From: Chloroflexota bacterium
Lineage (GTDB): Bacteria; Chloroflexota; Chloroflexia; Thermobaculales; Thermobaculaceae
Direction: 5' to 3'
DNA length: 38,769 nt
Assembly: GCA_902810765.1 (NCBI GenBank)
Contig: CADDYR010000005.1
Span: 1-38,769, forward strand
The position numbers were made by a program, and so were the translations under genes. How positions within the stretch are numbered: the stretch's first letter is position 1; every line of letters starts with the position of its first letter. Shown piece by piece: positions 366 to 12,959 of this stretch. The notes under the pieces were generated by a model. The model worked only from the letters and a program-made list of their open reading frames with translations, had not been told where the DNA came from and ran no database searches.

Positions 366-394
366 AGCATAAGACCCAGGAGCCCCGACGTCAA
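366..394 (-). promoter_or_regulatory. Sigma-70-type promoter of the secreted RHS-like gene
   Basis: On the minus strand TTGACG (389-394) and TATGCT (366-371) are separated by exactly 17 nt. Transcription would start near 359, giving a leader of about 40 nt before the ATG at 319. This is one of the best -35/-10 pairs in the window. Confidence 0.65.
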
Positions 395-418
395 TACATA
401 AACTTAACCACTTTCGAT

Positions 419-454
419 TATGAACCTACTCAATTACGAGTATGAACTCACTCA
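419..454. repeat. Two 14-bp direct repeats, 22-bp period, upstream of a promoter
   Basis: TATGAACCTACTCA (419-432) and TATGAACTCACTCA (441-454) differ at two positions and start 22 bp apart, two helical turns. They lie about 60-95 bp upstream of the predicted start of the 1-319 gene, where an activator would bind. The second copy overlaps the stop codon of the regulator pseudogene. A binding role is inference. Confidence 0.4.
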
Positions 455-1044
455 GAACCTCGTACCCAGCCCCCAGTAGTACAGCGCGAGCCCGACGTCG
501 TTGTGAAGCTCCAGCTTCGAGCGCACCCTCGAGGCCGAGTTCCTCACCGACTGCTCGCACATCCCCAGCTCCTCGGCTATCCTCCTCGCCTCCCAGCCCC
601 TCGCGATGCATCTGAGCACCGCCCGCTCGGTCGAGCTCAGCCTGCTCGTCCCGCTCAGGGTGTAGCGGTACCCCTCTCCCCTCGACAGCCTGCTCTGGAG
701 CTCGGAGAGCACCGAGCCTCGTCGCCGAGAACCGAGGAGGGGGATGAACAGCAGCGCCCCTTCCCCCAAAGCCCACAGGTCCTCCGTGTGCTCGAAGCAC
801 GGGTTTCGGGTCGCCACGATCGTCCTGTGCCTGTCGGCTTCGCCCATCCTCTCCAGCTCCCTCATCGCGTAGCTTGGGGGAAGTCCAACAACAGCTTGAC
901 CTCGGCGGAGCGGCACGCCGATATCCCCATCTCCGAGAGGGCGAGGGAGGCCAGATGGGTCACCGAGGGCTCCCCGCACAGCACCTGTACCCTCCCAAGG
1001 GGCAGGAGCTCGGGGAACGGGGCGAGGCTCGAGATGTCTTCCAT
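452..1044 (-). pseudogene. LuxR-type transcription regulator, frameshifted copy
   Basis: This is a paralogue of the intact regulator at 8583-9173, roughly half identical over its length. The N-terminal part (MEDISS... to VKLLLDF) and the C-terminal part (PPSYAMREL... to YYWGLGTRF) are in different frames. The break falls in a run of five C on the coding strand (876-880); a sixth C would restore FPPSYAM, matching IPPSHAL in the paralogue. The C-terminal 60 residues are a GerE/LuxR helix-turn-helix (STERAVLRCIARGWEARRIA...SVRNSASRVRSKL). The N-terminal domain looks like a degenerate receiver. The ATG at 1044 is chosen because AGAAGGGAG lies upstream. The remaining frame could still yield the HTH part. 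It could be a true pseudogene, a sequencing error or a slippage-expressed gene. Confidence 0.8.
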
Positions 1045-1127: not shown

Positions 1128-1184
1128 ATCATAGCACGAACGAGACGACAGCGGGGTTGAGGAAGGGTGGAGGAAAGGTTGAGG
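1128..1184 (-). promoter_or_regulatory. Promoter and operator repeats of the frameshifted regulator
   Basis: On the minus strand there are three 8-bp repeats with 11-bp period: CCTCAACC (1177-1184), CCTCCACC (1166-1173) and CCTCAACC (1155-1162). After 21 nt comes an extended -10, TGC TATGAT (TATGAT at 1128-1133). The spacer holds GTCTCGTTCGTG, identical to the matching spacer before the intact paralogue at 8440-8485, where the distance from last repeat to -10 is also 21 nt. This conservation between otherwise diverged copies argues for a working operator. The 11-bp spacing is like that of PhoB-type direct-repeat sites, though the binding protein is unknown. Confidence 0.65.
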
Positions 1185-8439: not shown

Positions 8440-8485
8440 CCTCAACCTTTCCTCAACCCCGTCCTGGTCTCGTTCGTGATAGCAT
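8440..8485 (+). promoter_or_regulatory. Promoter and operator repeats of the intact LuxR-type regulator
   Basis: Two CCTCAACC repeats (8440-8447 and 8451-8458) have an 11-bp period. After 21 nt comes an extended -10, TGA TAGCAT (TAGCAT at 8480-8485). The spacer includes GTCTCGTTCGTG, identical in the paralogous promoter at 1128-1184. A -35 position would overlap the end of the second repeat, as in promoters that need an activator. The leader to the GTG at 8583 is about 90 nt. Confidence 0.65.
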
Positions 8486-8582: not shown

Positions 8583-9173
8583 GTGGAGAAGAACCCGAGC
8601 TCCATCTTGTTCTCTTTGGTCCCGCCACTCGACAGGTTGGAGGTGCTATGCGGCGAGCGCTCGACAGCCTACGCAGTGTCTCTCGCGCTGTCCGATCTGG
8701 GTGTGCTCGTGCAGAGGTCGGCAGAGATCAAACTGCTGCTGGACATTCCTCCGAGCCACGCTCTCAGGCTGCTGGAGGCGATGAAGATCCCGCCCGAGAA
8801 GACGATAGTGGCGACACGCAACACCTGCCCTGAGCACTCAGAGGACCTGTGGGAGCTTGGATCTCTTGCCCTAGTCTCGATAAGTATGGCTCTGGCGCGG
8901 CCGAGGGGTTCGGTACTCTCCGAGATCCGAGAAAGGATCGCTAGAGGTGAGAGGTACAGGCTCACCCCCGACACGGCAAGCAGGCTCAGGTCCACAGAGA
9001 GGATCGTGCTACGGTATCTCGCACGGGGATGGGAGCCGAAGCAGATCGCCGAGAGACTGCAGCTCGAAGATCAATCGGTGAGGAATACAGCCTGTCGGGT
9101 GCGATCCAAGCTGGGGCTCTCGAACGACGCCAGGCTCACGATGTACTACTGGGGCCTGGGCGAGACGTTCTGA
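8583..9173 (+). CDS. LuxR-type transcription regulator with pseudo-receiver-like N terminus
   Basis: A 196-residue protein starting with GTG at 8583, with GGGAGG 6 nt upstream. The frame is open further up, but that part is promoter and leader. The last 60 residues form a LuxR/GerE helix-turn-helix: STERIVLRYLARGWEPKQIA, then DQSVRNTACRVRSKLGL. Residues 1-130 look like an alpha/beta domain similar to a receiver (LEVLCGE, ALSDLGVLVQRSAEIKLLLD, KTIVATRNTCPEHSEDLWEL) but lack a clear phosphoacceptor Asp pocket. It is the intact partner of the frameshifted copy at 452-1044. It lies directly upstream of genes for exported proteins. Repeats in its own promoter suggest autoregulation or control by the paralogue; both are inference. 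Confidence 0.85.
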   Translation: MEKNPSSILFSLVPPLDRLEVLCGERSTAYAVSLALSDLGVLVQRSAEIKLLLDIPPSHALRLLEAMKIPPEKTIVATRNTCPEHSEDLWELGSLALVSISMALARPRGSVLSEIRERIARGERYRLTPDTASRLRSTERIVLRYLARGWEPKQIAERLQLEDQSVRNTACRVRSKLGLSNDARLTMYYWGLGETF

Positions 9174-9341
9174 ATGTGTGTTTGTACTCGAGACTGAGCC
9201 CAAAACGGGTACGTTCACCTCTTGTGCGGCTGGCCTCCCGGTTGTATGCTCGCGTCAATCGTTCTCGCCTTCGCTGGAAGGGGAGAGCCACAGGCTTCGG
9301 GGACCCAGCAAGCTACGTGCCCCGTCCTCCGCATCCCCGCC

Positions 9342-9378: not shown

Positions 9379-9609
9379 ATGAACCGCATACGGCTACTTT
9401 CCTCGCGTTGGCTGATGGTGCTCGTGCTCGCAACCGGTCTGCTCAAAGGGGCGGCGGTGGCCGCCCGTCCGATGCTCTCCCCGCCCCAGCCTCGTCCGGT
9501 TCGGGGGCCAGATGCCACGTCCCAGGCCACCGACAACCAGCAGGGCGGGACCGGCGAGGCAGCGCCGAGCGAGTTGCCAAGTGTGGGAGCAGGCGGCACG
9601 ACGCGATGA
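9379..9609 (+). CDS. Small secreted peptide, hypothetical
   Basis: A 76-residue protein starting with ATG at 9379, preceded by GGGAGG 6 nt upstream. The first about 30 residues are a signal peptide: basic MNRIRLLSSR, then hydrophobic WLMVLVLATGLLKGAAVAA with a likely cleavage near AVA/AR. The mature part of about 46 residues is Pro, Gly, Ser and Gln rich (DNQQGGTGEAAPSELPS) and probably disordered. No known family is recognised. It opens the plus-strand exported-protein cluster and is followed by a strong hairpin, so it may be transcribed partly on its own. Confidence 0.6.
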   Translation: MNRIRLLSSRWLMVLVLATGLLKGAAVAARPMLSPPQPRPVRGPDATSQATDNQQGGTGEAAPSELPSVGAGGTTR

Positions 9610-9624
9610 GTACACTAATCGCTT

Positions 9625-9655
9625 GAGCACGGGGCGATGCAGTCGCCCCGTGCTC
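9625..9655 (+). terminator. Perfect 13-bp hairpin, terminator-like but without a T-run
   Basis: GAGCACGGGGCGA (9625-9637) pairs perfectly with TCGCCCCGTGCTC (9643-9655) around the loop TGCAG. It lies between the small secreted peptide and the Tat-exported protein. It lacks a following T-tract, so it may be a partial terminator, an mRNA stabiliser or a processing site. Confidence 0.55.
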
Positions 9656-9717
9656 GGGCCATACGTCTACGCGGCTCAGGCCGCAAGGCTGGAACGCTTA
9701 GACAAAGGAGAGCTTGC

Positions 9718-10749
9718 ATGATGTTCCGTAAGCGTAACTCAGAACAAGTACGTATTGACGCCATCAAGATGGGGGTGAAGAAAGCAAGGAGTGGCTGTGA
9801 TAGCTGTAGTAACGGCTACTTCGAGCTGGCCAAGCAGAATGGTGCCACTGAGGATGAGATCAAGCAAGTGCTTGAGGCCGCGAGCGACGAACCGGGCGAA
9901 TTGCTGATGAGCAGACGCAAGTTGCTCAAAGGCACCGTCGCAGCCGGTGCAGCCTTAGTTCTTGCCGGTACCCTTGAGGGGCTGATTCCGAAGGGTGCGG
10001 AAGCTTTCAGTCACTACTGGGGCGTCGACAGCCTTACGAACCTCTCCCACGGAGCGGGTTGGGGGGCTCCTCAGTTCTACATAGGGCGGTTTGGATCGGG
10101 CACGGCATCGAATTGGAACTACTTCAGCCCGACAGATGCAAACGCAGCGGGTGAGTGTTACACCTATGACTACTGGGACCTCGAGGGGCCGGGCGCCAAG
10201 CCCTCGGGGTCAACCGCGTATCAATGGGGGCAGAAGCAGGCGAACGCCGCGTTCAATACCTGGGTAAGCAATACGAAGGCACAACAGTACATAGGAGGTA
10301 CGACCATATTCGCCGACATAGAGAAGGGGAACTATGGCTGGAGCGGCACGTCGATATCCAGCAGTCAGGACGTGCTGAACGGCTGGCAGGACGCTATGGC
10401 TTCCAATTCAGGTTTTCCGATGGGCCTGTACTTCAACCTGGATAGTTACGATACCCTATTTGGCTCCGGATTCAACTTCCGATACGCTGCGGTTATATAC
10501 ATCGCGCGCTGCGTCAACTTGGGCTGCAGCCCCTGTGATGCGAGCTGCAACACGAAGACCAGTGCGGGCAGCGAGTTCGACAACCACGTGTCCAGTACAA
10601 CACGCGGACAGTGCCAACCAGTGGTCTGGCAGTACTGGCAGGGAAGCAGTTCCAGTTGTGGCGATTGGGACCTCGCGGTGCAGCGACCCTCGTGCGGTGC
10701 TTTCAGCGCGCGAACCGTCTCGTACGTATCAAGCACTCCTAGTTGTTGA
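9718..10749 (+). CDS. Tat-exported glycoside-hydrolase-like (DUF1906/GH25-like) protein with AhpD-like N-terminal segment
   Basis: A 343-residue protein starting with ATG at 9718; AAAGGAG lies 7 nt upstream. A twin-arginine signal (SRRKLLK, RR at 66-67, hydrophobic TVAAGAALVLAG, cleavage near AEA/F at 96) starts only at residue 65. The 64 residues before it contain GCDSCSNGY (C27, C30) followed by NGATEDEIKQVLEAA. This resembles the CxxCxxxH...GATxEEI helix of AhpD/carboxymuconolactone proteins, with Tyr34 in place of His. The mature part looks like a GH25-type or DUF1906 TIM barrel: IFADIEKG near 207, MGLYFNLDSY, then WQYWQG and DWDLA near the end. Six Cys in the last 90 residues may form disulphides. 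Tat export of an already folded protein fits this. The hydrolase substrate is unknown. Confidence 0.7.
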   Translation: MMFRKRNSEQVRIDAIKMGVKKARSGCDSCSNGYFELAKQNGATEDEIKQVLEAASDEPGELLMSRRKLLKGTVAAGAALVLAGTLEGLIPKGAEAFSHYWGVDSLTNLSHGAGWGAPQFYIGRFGSGTASNWNYFSPTDANAAGECYTYDYWDLEGPGAKPSGSTAYQWGQKQANAAFNTWVSNTKAQQYIGGTTIFADIEKGNYGWSGTSISSSQDVLNGWQDAMASNSGFPMGLYFNLDSYDTLFGSGFNFRYAAVIYIARCVNLGCSPCDASCNTKTSAGSEFDNHVSSTTRGQCQPVVWQYWQGSSSSCGDWDLAVQRPSCGAFSARTVSYVSSTPSC

Positions 10750-10789: not shown

Positions 10790-11728
10790 ATGAACAATCA
10801 GATAAGCAGCAACTGGGTTCAACAGAATCCTCCCGTTCAGCCTTCACCCAGGACTATGCCTAATATGGTGTACGACGAGGGTAATCGAGTGGTGCTGCTC
10901 TTCAGCGGCGACACCAACATATATGCGGATACCTGGACGTGGAACGGACAGACCTGGATCGAGCTCAATCCCTCCCATTCACCATCTGCCAGAAGCGGTG
11001 CTGGATTTGTCTACGATACAGCCAGAGGACAAGCCGTCCTGTTCGGCGGCTTGAGCGACGGCCAAGCCCTCAATGACACCTGGATATGGGATGGTAACGA
11101 CTGGACGGAGCTCCTGCCATCTGTATCACCATCACCACGCAACGAGGTATGCATGGTGTACGACGCAGCCCACGGCAACGTAGTGCTGTTCGGGGGCTGC
11201 GTCCCTAACAAGCCGAGGGACGTCACATTGATCAACGAAACCTGGCTGTGGGACGGCGATAACTGGACGCAAGCGAACCCTGCTGACAGCCCTCAGGCGC
11301 GAATGGATGCAGCGATGGCGTACAACGCCGCGGCACAGAACGTGGTGCTGTTTGGAGGTGCCAGCACATCCTTGCCGCTCAACGATACCTGGACATGGGA
11401 TGGGGCAAACTGGACTGAGCAACAGGTCTCGGCCAGCCCAGGGGAGCGATCCTTCGCCCAAATGGTACACATCGACTCTAATCAGCCCGTGGTACTTCTC
11501 GGGGGATTGAACGTTACCACACCCTTGAGTGATATGTGGTTGTGGAACGGGAGCGACTGGATGCAATTCCTGATCACATCACCGGCCACCTATTACGACG
11601 GATTGGCGTACGATAGCGCACGTGATGCTTTGGTACTGTACGCTACAGCCGGATGGCCGGTACGCTTAAGCGGTGGATTGAGCGATAGCATTCCCGTAAG
11701 CCAGACGTGGACTTTGAGCACGTCATAA
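10790..11728 (+). CDS. Six-bladed kelch-type propeller protein without a visible signal peptide
   Basis: A 312-residue protein starting with ATG at 10790, with GGAAGGGAA upstream. It consists of six repeats of about 48 residues with the pattern MVYD...VVLFGG...LNDTWTWDG..W. The N-terminal NWVQQNPPVQPSPR would close the last blade, as in circular propellers. Such domains bind proteins or glycans. Unlike most neighbours it has no export signal, so it may be cytoplasmic, may have lost its leader, or may leave by another route. It lies 40 nt after the Tat protein gene and 10 nt before the second kelch gene, consistent with one transcript. Confidence 0.8.
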   Translation: MNNQISSNWVQQNPPVQPSPRTMPNMVYDEGNRVVLLFSGDTNIYADTWTWNGQTWIELNPSHSPSARSGAGFVYDTARGQAVLFGGLSDGQALNDTWIWDGNDWTELLPSVSPSPRNEVCMVYDAAHGNVVLFGGCVPNKPRDVTLINETWLWDGDNWTQANPADSPQARMDAAMAYNAAAQNVVLFGGASTSLPLNDTWTWDGANWTEQQVSASPGERSFAQMVHIDSNQPVVLLGGLNVTTPLSDMWLWNGSDWMQFLITSPATYYDGLAYDSARDALVLYATAGWPVRLSGGLSDSIPVSQTWTLSTS

Positions 11729-11738
11729 AGGTCCGAAG

Positions 11739-12959
11739 ATGCAAGTGATACGCATGGTGATTACCGCATTGCTTATGAGCTGGGCTTTGACCTCGCCCGC
11801 CTTCGCGCAGGGGAACAGACATCAGGCTCCAAACTCTAGCTGCGTCCCACAGGTCTCCCCGCCAAGATGGTCCACAGCTATGGCTTACGACGCGGCCACA
11901 GGGCAAGTGGTGCTGTTCGGAGGTATAGCAGCATCGCCTTACGGGCAGTTGAACGATACGTGGGTCTGGAACGGGAAGGGATGGCAGGAACTGCGCCCCA
12001 CGAACTCCCCGTCACCAAGGGATAGCACTGATATGGTCTACGACGCGGCCACGAAGCAGGTAGTGCTGTACGGAGGGCACGGAGGCAACGGTCCGTTGAA
12101 CGATACCTGGACCTGGGACGGCACGAACTGGACCGAGCTACATCCAGCTACGTCTCCACCCGCTCAACTTGGATCTCCAAGCATGGCCTACGATGCGTCT
12201 ACGGGGAAGGTGGTGCTCTTCGGCGGGGAACTGCCAAACCCGCAGAGCCAGATGGCCGAGCCCATCCCTCAGAACCGTACCTGGACCTGGAATGGCAGGA
12301 CCTGGGTCCTCCAACATCCCACGTCCCCTCCCGCGCGCTCCTCGGCGAGTATGGTGTACGACTCGGCTACCGGGCAGGTGGTGATGTTCGGAGGGGTGGG
12401 GCACACGAAGGGGGACCTGTTCGACGACACGTGGACCTGGGACGGTAGCAACTGGACGGAGCAGCGCCCGGCAACATCCCCGCCCGCGCGCACCGACGCA
12501 GGCATGGCCTACGATGCAGCGAGCAGGCAGGTGGTACTGTTCGCGGGGAATGGAGGGAGCGCAAACGCTCTCAGCGATACCTGGAGCTGGGACGGGAAGA
12601 CCTGGACCAGGCAGGAGGTGAGTGCCGGCCCGAGCGGCCCGAACGTATCCGCAGCCTACGATAGCAACCGGAGGGAGATCGTGGCTTACAACACTCCCGA
12701 GAGGAGCCGGTATGCTCCTCCCGCCCCAAGCCACACGCTACTTTGGAACGGCAGTTGGCGGGCTTTGAAGGGATGTGTCAGTAACTACTCCGCACAGGGC
12801 AAAACCTCATCTATTCCAAGCGGTGTGCCTAACACAGGAGGCGGGGGTATGAAGACCACCGACAATACCAGCATCCCCTACGGCAGCATTACGGCCATCG
12901 GGTTGCTCGCTATCGGTGGCTGCCTGCTTACATGGCTACGATACATCCGGTGCTGCTAG
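11739..12959 (+). CDS. Secreted six-bladed kelch propeller with sortase-like C-terminal anchor
   Basis: A 406-residue protein. Residues 1-23 are a signal peptide (MQVIRMVITALLMSWALTSP, likely cleaved AFA/Q). Six repeats follow with consensus MAYDAATGQVVLFGG...LNDTWTWDG..WTE, spanning about 45-340, then a short linker. The C terminus has VPNTG near residue 363, glycines, a hydrophobic stretch from about 381 to 399 (SITAIGLLAIGGCLLTWL) and a basic end (RYIRCC). This is the order of a sortase substrate (LPxTG, membrane segment, positive tail), with Val for Leu. No sortase is in the window. It could instead be a simple C-terminal membrane anchor. A very stable hairpin follows the gene. Confidence 0.8.
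   Translation: MQVIRMVITALLMSWALTSPAFAQGNRHQAPNSSCVPQVSPPRWSTAMAYDAATGQVVLFGGIAASPYGQLNDTWVWNGKGWQELRPTNSPSPRDSTDMVYDAATKQVVLYGGHGGNGPLNDTWTWDGTNWTELHPATSPPAQLGSPSMAYDASTGKVVLFGGELPNPQSQMAEPIPQNRTWTWNGRTWVLQHPTSPPARSSASMVYDSATGQVVMFGGVGHTKGDLFDDTWTWDGSNWTEQRPATSPPARTDAGMAYDAASRQVVLFAGNGGSANALSDTWSWDGKTWTRQEVSAGPSGPNVSAAYDSNRREIVAYNTPERSRYAPPAPSHTLLWNGSWRALKGCVSNYSAQGKTSSIPSGVPNTGGGGMKTTDNTSIPYGSITAIGLLAIGGCLLTWLRYIRCC

Follow-up and report, generated by a model that had tools for sequence, protein, structure and literature searches.

An 11-bp direct-repeat promoter element shared by luxR-type genes and a type I-B CRISPR-Cas operon in a Chloroflexota genome

Operators of the OmpR/PhoB type, such as the Pho box, are direct repeats with an 11-bp period that replace the -35 element. 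The LuxR gene pimM of Streptomyces natalensis is activated by the SARP-LAL protein PimR, which binds three heptamers set 4 nt apart in the pimM promoter (PMC3367932, PMC5930380). For cas operons, the sections consulted of a review describe SmaR, RcsB-BglJ acting through LeuO, VicRK and Csa3 as regulators (PMC10013973).

The stretch of Chloroflexota DNA analysed here (38,769 nt, hereafter the window) carries two luxR-type genes whose promoters, P1 and P2, both contain the unit CTCAACC-N4 in tandem with an 11-bp period (Table 1). The first-pass annotation had reported three such repeats before gene 1, two before its paralogue and 12 bases common to both spacers, all of which we found to the nucleotide. 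P1, on the minus strand, has exact CCTCAACC twice (1155-1162 and 1177-1184) and CCTCCACC between the two (1166-1173); at P2, the two exact copies occupy 8440-8447 and 8451-8458 of the plus strand. The last repeat is separated by 21 nt from the -10 hexamer in both promoters, and each hexamer, TATGAT after TGC (P1) or TAGCAT after TGA (P2), is TGn-extended. Without mismatch, GTCTCGTTCGTG occurs in the window only within these two spacers (1135-1146, minus strand; 8467-8478, plus strand). Flanks were compared by anchored ungapped counts, as gapped alignment was too permissive. P1 and P2 agree at 15 of 19 positions in the repeats and 11 of 12 in the spacer, compared with 21 of 76 upstream and 23 of 75 in the leader; only repeats, spacer and -10 are thus conserved, and this, as far as sequence comparison goes, argues for selection (or recent local exchange) over simple shared age. 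A search of the window for known RNA elements found none.

Table 1 Features of the window and of related sites elsewhere in the genome. Positions are those of the window unless a contig (C) or locus (L) is named.
Feature	Position	Strand	Description
-10 TATGCT	366-371	-	17 nt after TTGACG; promoter of exported-protein gene behind luxR 1
Candidate LuxR operator after gene 1	389-453	-	GAGTGAGTTCATACTC 438-453, GAGTAGGTTCATAATC 416-431, weaker third copy; 22-bp period
luxR-type gene 1	452-1044	-	pseudo-receiver and GerE HTH; frameshifted at C5 run ~876-880, premature TGA 862-864
P1 spacer and extended -10	1128-1154	-	21 nt with GTCTCGTTCGTG; TGCTATGAT, TATGAT at 1128-1133
Candidate operator P1	1155-1184	-	CCTCAACC-TTT-CCTCCACC-CTT-CCTCAACC, three repeats, 11-bp spacing
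Candidate operator P2	8440-8458	+	CCTCAACC-TTT-CCTCAACC, two repeats, 11-bp spacing
P2 spacer and extended -10	8459-8485	+	21 nt with GTCTCGTTCGTG; TGATAGCAT, TAGCAT at 8480-8485
luxR-type gene 2	8583-9173	+	intact, GTG start, 196 aa; receiver-like domain and NarL/FixJ-type HTH
Weaker LuxR-operator-like sequence after gene 2	9174-9250	+	-35 TTGTGC 9222-9227, -10 TATGCT 9245-9250
Small gene behind luxR 2	9380-9610	+	76 aa, signal-peptide-like N-terminus
CRISPR-Cas locus on C7	L029 2892-13243		complete type I-B; cas6-cas8b-cas7-cas5-cas3-(cas4)-cas1-cas2 and array
C7 copy	C7:13214-13243		~300 nt upstream of cas6
C283 copy	C283:4490-4519		near-identical to P1 over promoter, leader and luxR start; unrelated DNA then cuts the coding sequence short (L031 4200-4520)
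C52 copy	C52:2354-2383		before DUF3592 protein gene
C274 copy	C274:1094-1152		before small membrane-protein gene
C68 copy			before third luxR paralogue, intact

The two regulators are about half identical, as first described (54% over 164 aligned residues). Gene 1 is not a single open frame but contains an apparent -1 frameshift. Both of its frames match the paralogue, so the frameshift is either recent or a sequencing error. Both proteins have a C-terminal GerE helix-turn-helix (PF00196, 29.4 and 41.6 bits against a cut-off of 23.5). An AlphaFold model (mean pLDDT 89) has full-length RcsB, LiaR, EvgA and DesR as its top PDB matches, with TM-scores of ~0.35-0.55; these modest values probably reflect a different relative placement of the two domains, and the model assigns a receiver fold to the N-terminus. 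At the positions that we infer to correspond to the usual phosphorylation set, only D54 and T78 are invariant across 11 homologues, the acidic pair and Lys positions being unconserved; the gene 2 product itself lacks the usual acidic pair and Lys. Members of this family are rare. Among the 400 genomes sampled from the phylum, 8 gave a match, some over part of the protein only, and a scan of named genomes yielded one MAG of the Rubrobacteraceae and, from a single Herpetosiphonaceae MAG, two loci. A genome scan with one protein returned no match, while an alignment returned three distant homologues. One homologue in another genome (L027, G045:C2) has an internal stop codon, indicating that decaying copies of the family are found there too.

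Using patterns derived from the window alone, we searched the genome to which it belongs (3.98 Mb, 384 contigs) and recovered further copies of the element on contigs C7, C283 and C52. The pattern CAAC-N12-TnGTTCGTGnTAnnnT matched four places genome-wide at zero or one mismatch, and its reversed control none. The copy on C68, in the promoter of a third luxR paralogue, was reached through a protein search. A sequence-only model built from these six sites (all but C274) recovered each of them at E<1e-14 and added C274 at E=2e-4, bringing the total to seven: P1, P2, C7, C283, C52, C68 and C274. Selection on the promoter and a small regulon had been suggested in the first-pass annotation together with a genome scan, and the five additional copies, three of them before genes other than luxR, support both suggestions. 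Two or three repeats are present at P1, P2, C7, C283 and C52 and two at C274; at C68 they are degenerate. The -10 motif TGnTAnnnT is found at all seven sites. The distance from repeat to -10, first given as exactly 21 nt, holds for P1 and P2 and for four sites in all, but is 20 nt at C7, C68 and C274. The last repeat therefore ends 20-21 nt before the -10 hexamer, at about -41 to -33 relative to start sites predicted from sequence. C274 keeps its repeats and TGnTATGAT but has lost TCGTTCG and lacks the CGTTCGTG stretch. Phased repeats, conserved spacer and extended -10 together form a core of ~42 bp.

Downstream of the C68 luxR gene (L018, downstream of 2055), two genes in tandem encode short proteins in which CGNTC..CDNTCGGSCGYT is repeated. 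Neither matched a Pfam family above cut-off; both are likely precursor peptides, the product being modified or rich in disulfides. No close plasmid copy of this locus was found.

In the CRISPR-Cas locus on C7, cas6 was identified by TIGR01877, cas8b by PADLOC (658 bits) and cas1 by TIGR03641, while the cas4-like frame and cas2 were named by inspection. The array comprises 16 repeats and a degenerate terminal repeat. When P2 is compared with the cas6 promoter by the same counts, the repeats agree at 16 of 19 positions and the spacer at 11 of 12, with 19 of 76 upstream and 23 of 75 in the leader. The leader at the cas6 site contains a stretch resembling the luxR ribosome-binding site, and a possible second promoter, TTGACG-N17-TACGAT, lies between the repeat site and cas6. 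We also considered crRNA-guided control of the promoters and rejected it, as spacers of the C7 array match them no clearly better than shuffled spacers do.

BLAST of the site regions showed P1 to be 95% identical to C283 over 231 bp and 90% identical to C52 over 78 bp, with weaker homology reaching into the leader at C68, C274 and C7. The sites therefore derive, at least partly, from duplicated luxR promoter-leader segments; the seven are kin through such duplication and not independent occurrences. Copies of the luxR promoter and leader, some of them (C7, C52, C274) left before other genes, might simply have kept the core as a working promoter, as the leader homology at several sites, including the ribosome-binding-site-like stretch at cas6, and the luxR copy broken off early in its reading frame at C283 would lead one to expect. 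We regard this as rather doubtful: the flanks of P1, P2 and C7 have decayed to background while repeats and spacer have stayed, so descent alone is no explanation, and a promoter depending on its extended -10 only would not retain two or three phased repeats.

Outside this genome, the repeat promoter was sought in six other genomes of the same family, 158 of the class and 400 sampled from the phylum, and no site was found; the class and phylum scans used stricter filters, by which weak matches can be lost. In a pattern search of 100 relatives, matches outside the window's genome were isolated and did not form a conserved promoter, and the only triple repeat (G014) resembles a hairpin at the end of a gene. 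Viral contigs gave four exact matches to a short form; each lacked a second repeat and three had one and the same sequence, and we took them as chance. The element is also absent upstream of the family members C109, C193, G003, G045, G075, G085 and L091-L093. Homologues elsewhere would be expected to keep the repeats if LuxR proteins bound them, and since none does, the repeats are probably read by something other than the LuxR proteins themselves.

Sequences behind the luxR genes point in the same direction. After gene 1, copies of a 16-mer related to the palindromes described below end at the -35 TTGACG (389-394, minus strand), and luxR 2 is followed by only a weak version and TTGTGC-N17-TATGCT before the next gene; TTGnnn-N17-TATGCT recurs behind luxR in the window genes and C68. 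Palindromes are found behind luxR at C68 (GAGTACGTCCGTACTC, overlapping the stop codon), G003 (GAGTACGTGCGTACTC) and C109 (GGTTACGGACGTAACC). Those behind luxR in L077, L078, L092 and L093 differ from this type, and CTCAACC repeats are absent there; L077 and L092 have long GGGAA/TTCCC palindromes directly before a TTGT -35, with a weaker version in L093. Such a second promoter, with palindromes or 22-bp-spaced repeats, is shared behind luxR genes (window 366-453 and 9174-9250; L033 5504-5519; L079; L020), begins at or near the stop codon and faces a gene for an exported or Cys-rich protein. On sequence evidence, the palindrome behind luxR appears a better candidate for the LuxR operator than the 11-bp repeats. 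As the mark of a wide LuxR regulon, the exact GAGTACG palindrome was rejected: C68 was its sole exact site, and two-mismatch matches were about twice those of the reversed control.

Behind luxR 2, the protein encoded at 9637-10749 opens with a CMD-like segment, carries a twin-arginine signal and has a C-terminal half that is exported and without an assigned family. Window positions 10790-12959 encode two tandem Kelch-repeat proteins. In another genome (L026 downstream, G045:C3), the protein behind the luxR homologue begins in a DCC-like manner, and its end, very rich in Cys, by eye resembles halocin C8-like domains.

The palindromes bear directly on the first-pass suggestion of auto- or cross-regulation. 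Extended to the cas operon, it would have the LuxR-type proteins occupy the 11-bp repeats, or alternatively the conserved spacer 12-mer, both there and in front of their own genes. Some NarL-type regulators use tandem half-sites, the spacer CGTTCG is loosely like the half-sites of the downstream palindromes (GGTTACGAACG at C109), and it is the three closest paralogues (both window genes and C68), not the two distant ones, that carry the element. We nevertheless consider this reading unlikely. The repeats are missing at the distant paralogues C109 and C193 as well as at homologues in other genomes, C274 keeps the repeats yet loses TCGTTCG, and several family members have a palindrome after the luxR stop codon and before the next gene's promoter: of NarL-dimer type right behind luxR in C68, C109 and G003, and of other types, without CTCAACC repeats, in L077, L078, L092 and L093. 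Tandem 11-bp direct repeats are moreover typical of SARP/OmpR winged-helix activators, which fit them better than NarL/LuxR dimers do.

We therefore favour, with about an even chance of its being right, a reading in which an activator of SARP/OmpR winged-helix type binds in tandem to the repeats as its operator and turns on luxR, the LuxR protein in turn activating the gene behind. That the binder is an activator, that it is of this type and that a cascade follows are the parts we infer. The activator would bind the two or three CTCAACC-N4 repeats in head-to-tail order along a single face of the DNA, and the last of them borders, on its upstream side, the -35 position in a putative sigma-A promoter that has the extended -10 TGnTAnnnT and no good -35; given this arrangement, the activator would take over the -35 function. 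This would amount to class II activation, with the LuxR proteins one step below. Each LuxR protein would most likely activate the gene directly behind it, encoding an exported or Cys-rich peptide, through the palindrome near its own stop codon. The regulon would be small and lineage-specific, comprising the luxR-type pseudo-response-regulator genes, the DUF3592 gene, the small membrane-protein gene and the type I-B operon, which would have been drawn into the same regulon as the luxR genes.

Two features of a SARP/OmpR-type tandem operator, 11-bp direct repeats in at least two copies and a position abutting -35, are found here. Proteins with strong BTAD (SARP) domains, above the family cut-off, are encoded on C36 and C179, without a link to the repeat sites; beside those sites we found neither a SARP nor an OmpR gene. 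Some observations count against the activator: the spacer 12-mer is conserved as strongly as the repeats, although plain class II activation needs no such spacer; the sites are related by duplication and so are not independent; and the possible second promoter lies between the C7 site and cas6. The strongly conserved 12-mer could also be explained by an ECF-type alternative sigma factor that reads CAACC near -35 and CGTG/CGTT near -10, the repeats being incidental. The spacing CAACC-N15/16-CGTG is close to that of ECF promoters. We think this highly improbable, as the ordinary extended -10 TGnTAnnnT is present at every one of the seven sites, C274 is without CGTTCGTG, and a sigma factor would leave the two or three repeats and their 11-bp period unexplained.

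More tentatively, we suggest a lineage-specific regulon for competition and defence, in which one activator acts through the ~42-bp core on both a type I-B CRISPR-Cas system and pseudo-response regulators controlling exported or Cys-rich bacteriocin-like peptides, a combination not described before in the literature searched; we hold this possible but doubtful. If the proposed activator exists, CRISPR-Cas expression in a little-studied lineage would be tied to the control of exported, possibly antimicrobial peptides, a short and testable operator sequence would be at hand for fishing out its regulator, and the real operator of this LuxR-type family would probably lie behind, not before, its own gene.

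Among known systems, the NarL/FixJ regulators DesR, RcsB and EvgA resemble the window proteins over both receiver and HTH, by profile and by fold. Compared with a normal NarL/FixJ receiver, the window proteins lack the acidic pair and conserved Lys, with the invariant D54 and T78 at the usual strand ends. The OmpR/PhoB operators differ in repeat sequence from CTCAACC; no adjacent two-component pair was identified at the sites here, and none of the seven lies at a phosphate gene. Control of CRISPR-Cas by LuxR-family or two-component regulators has precedents; in the review sections that describe them, no cas operon has a promoter of 11-bp repeats in common with luxR-type genes, and the review makes no mention of Chloroflexota (PMC10013973). 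PimR-PimM provides a direct precedent, in that a winged-helix activator controls a luxR gene and the product of this gene acts on further targets. In both cases a luxR-type gene is preceded by heptamers that are directly repeated two or three times at 4-nt intervals, hence with an 11-bp period, and the luxR-type product is proposed here, too, to act on further promoters. The heptamer is CTCAACC here and CGGCAAG there; our repeats abut the -35 position of a promoter with an extended -10, whereas those of pimM lie 55 nt upstream of -35; and the LuxR protein has a receiver-like domain in place of the PAS domain of PimM. Unlike in PimR-PimM, the same element here also stands before a CRISPR-Cas operon.
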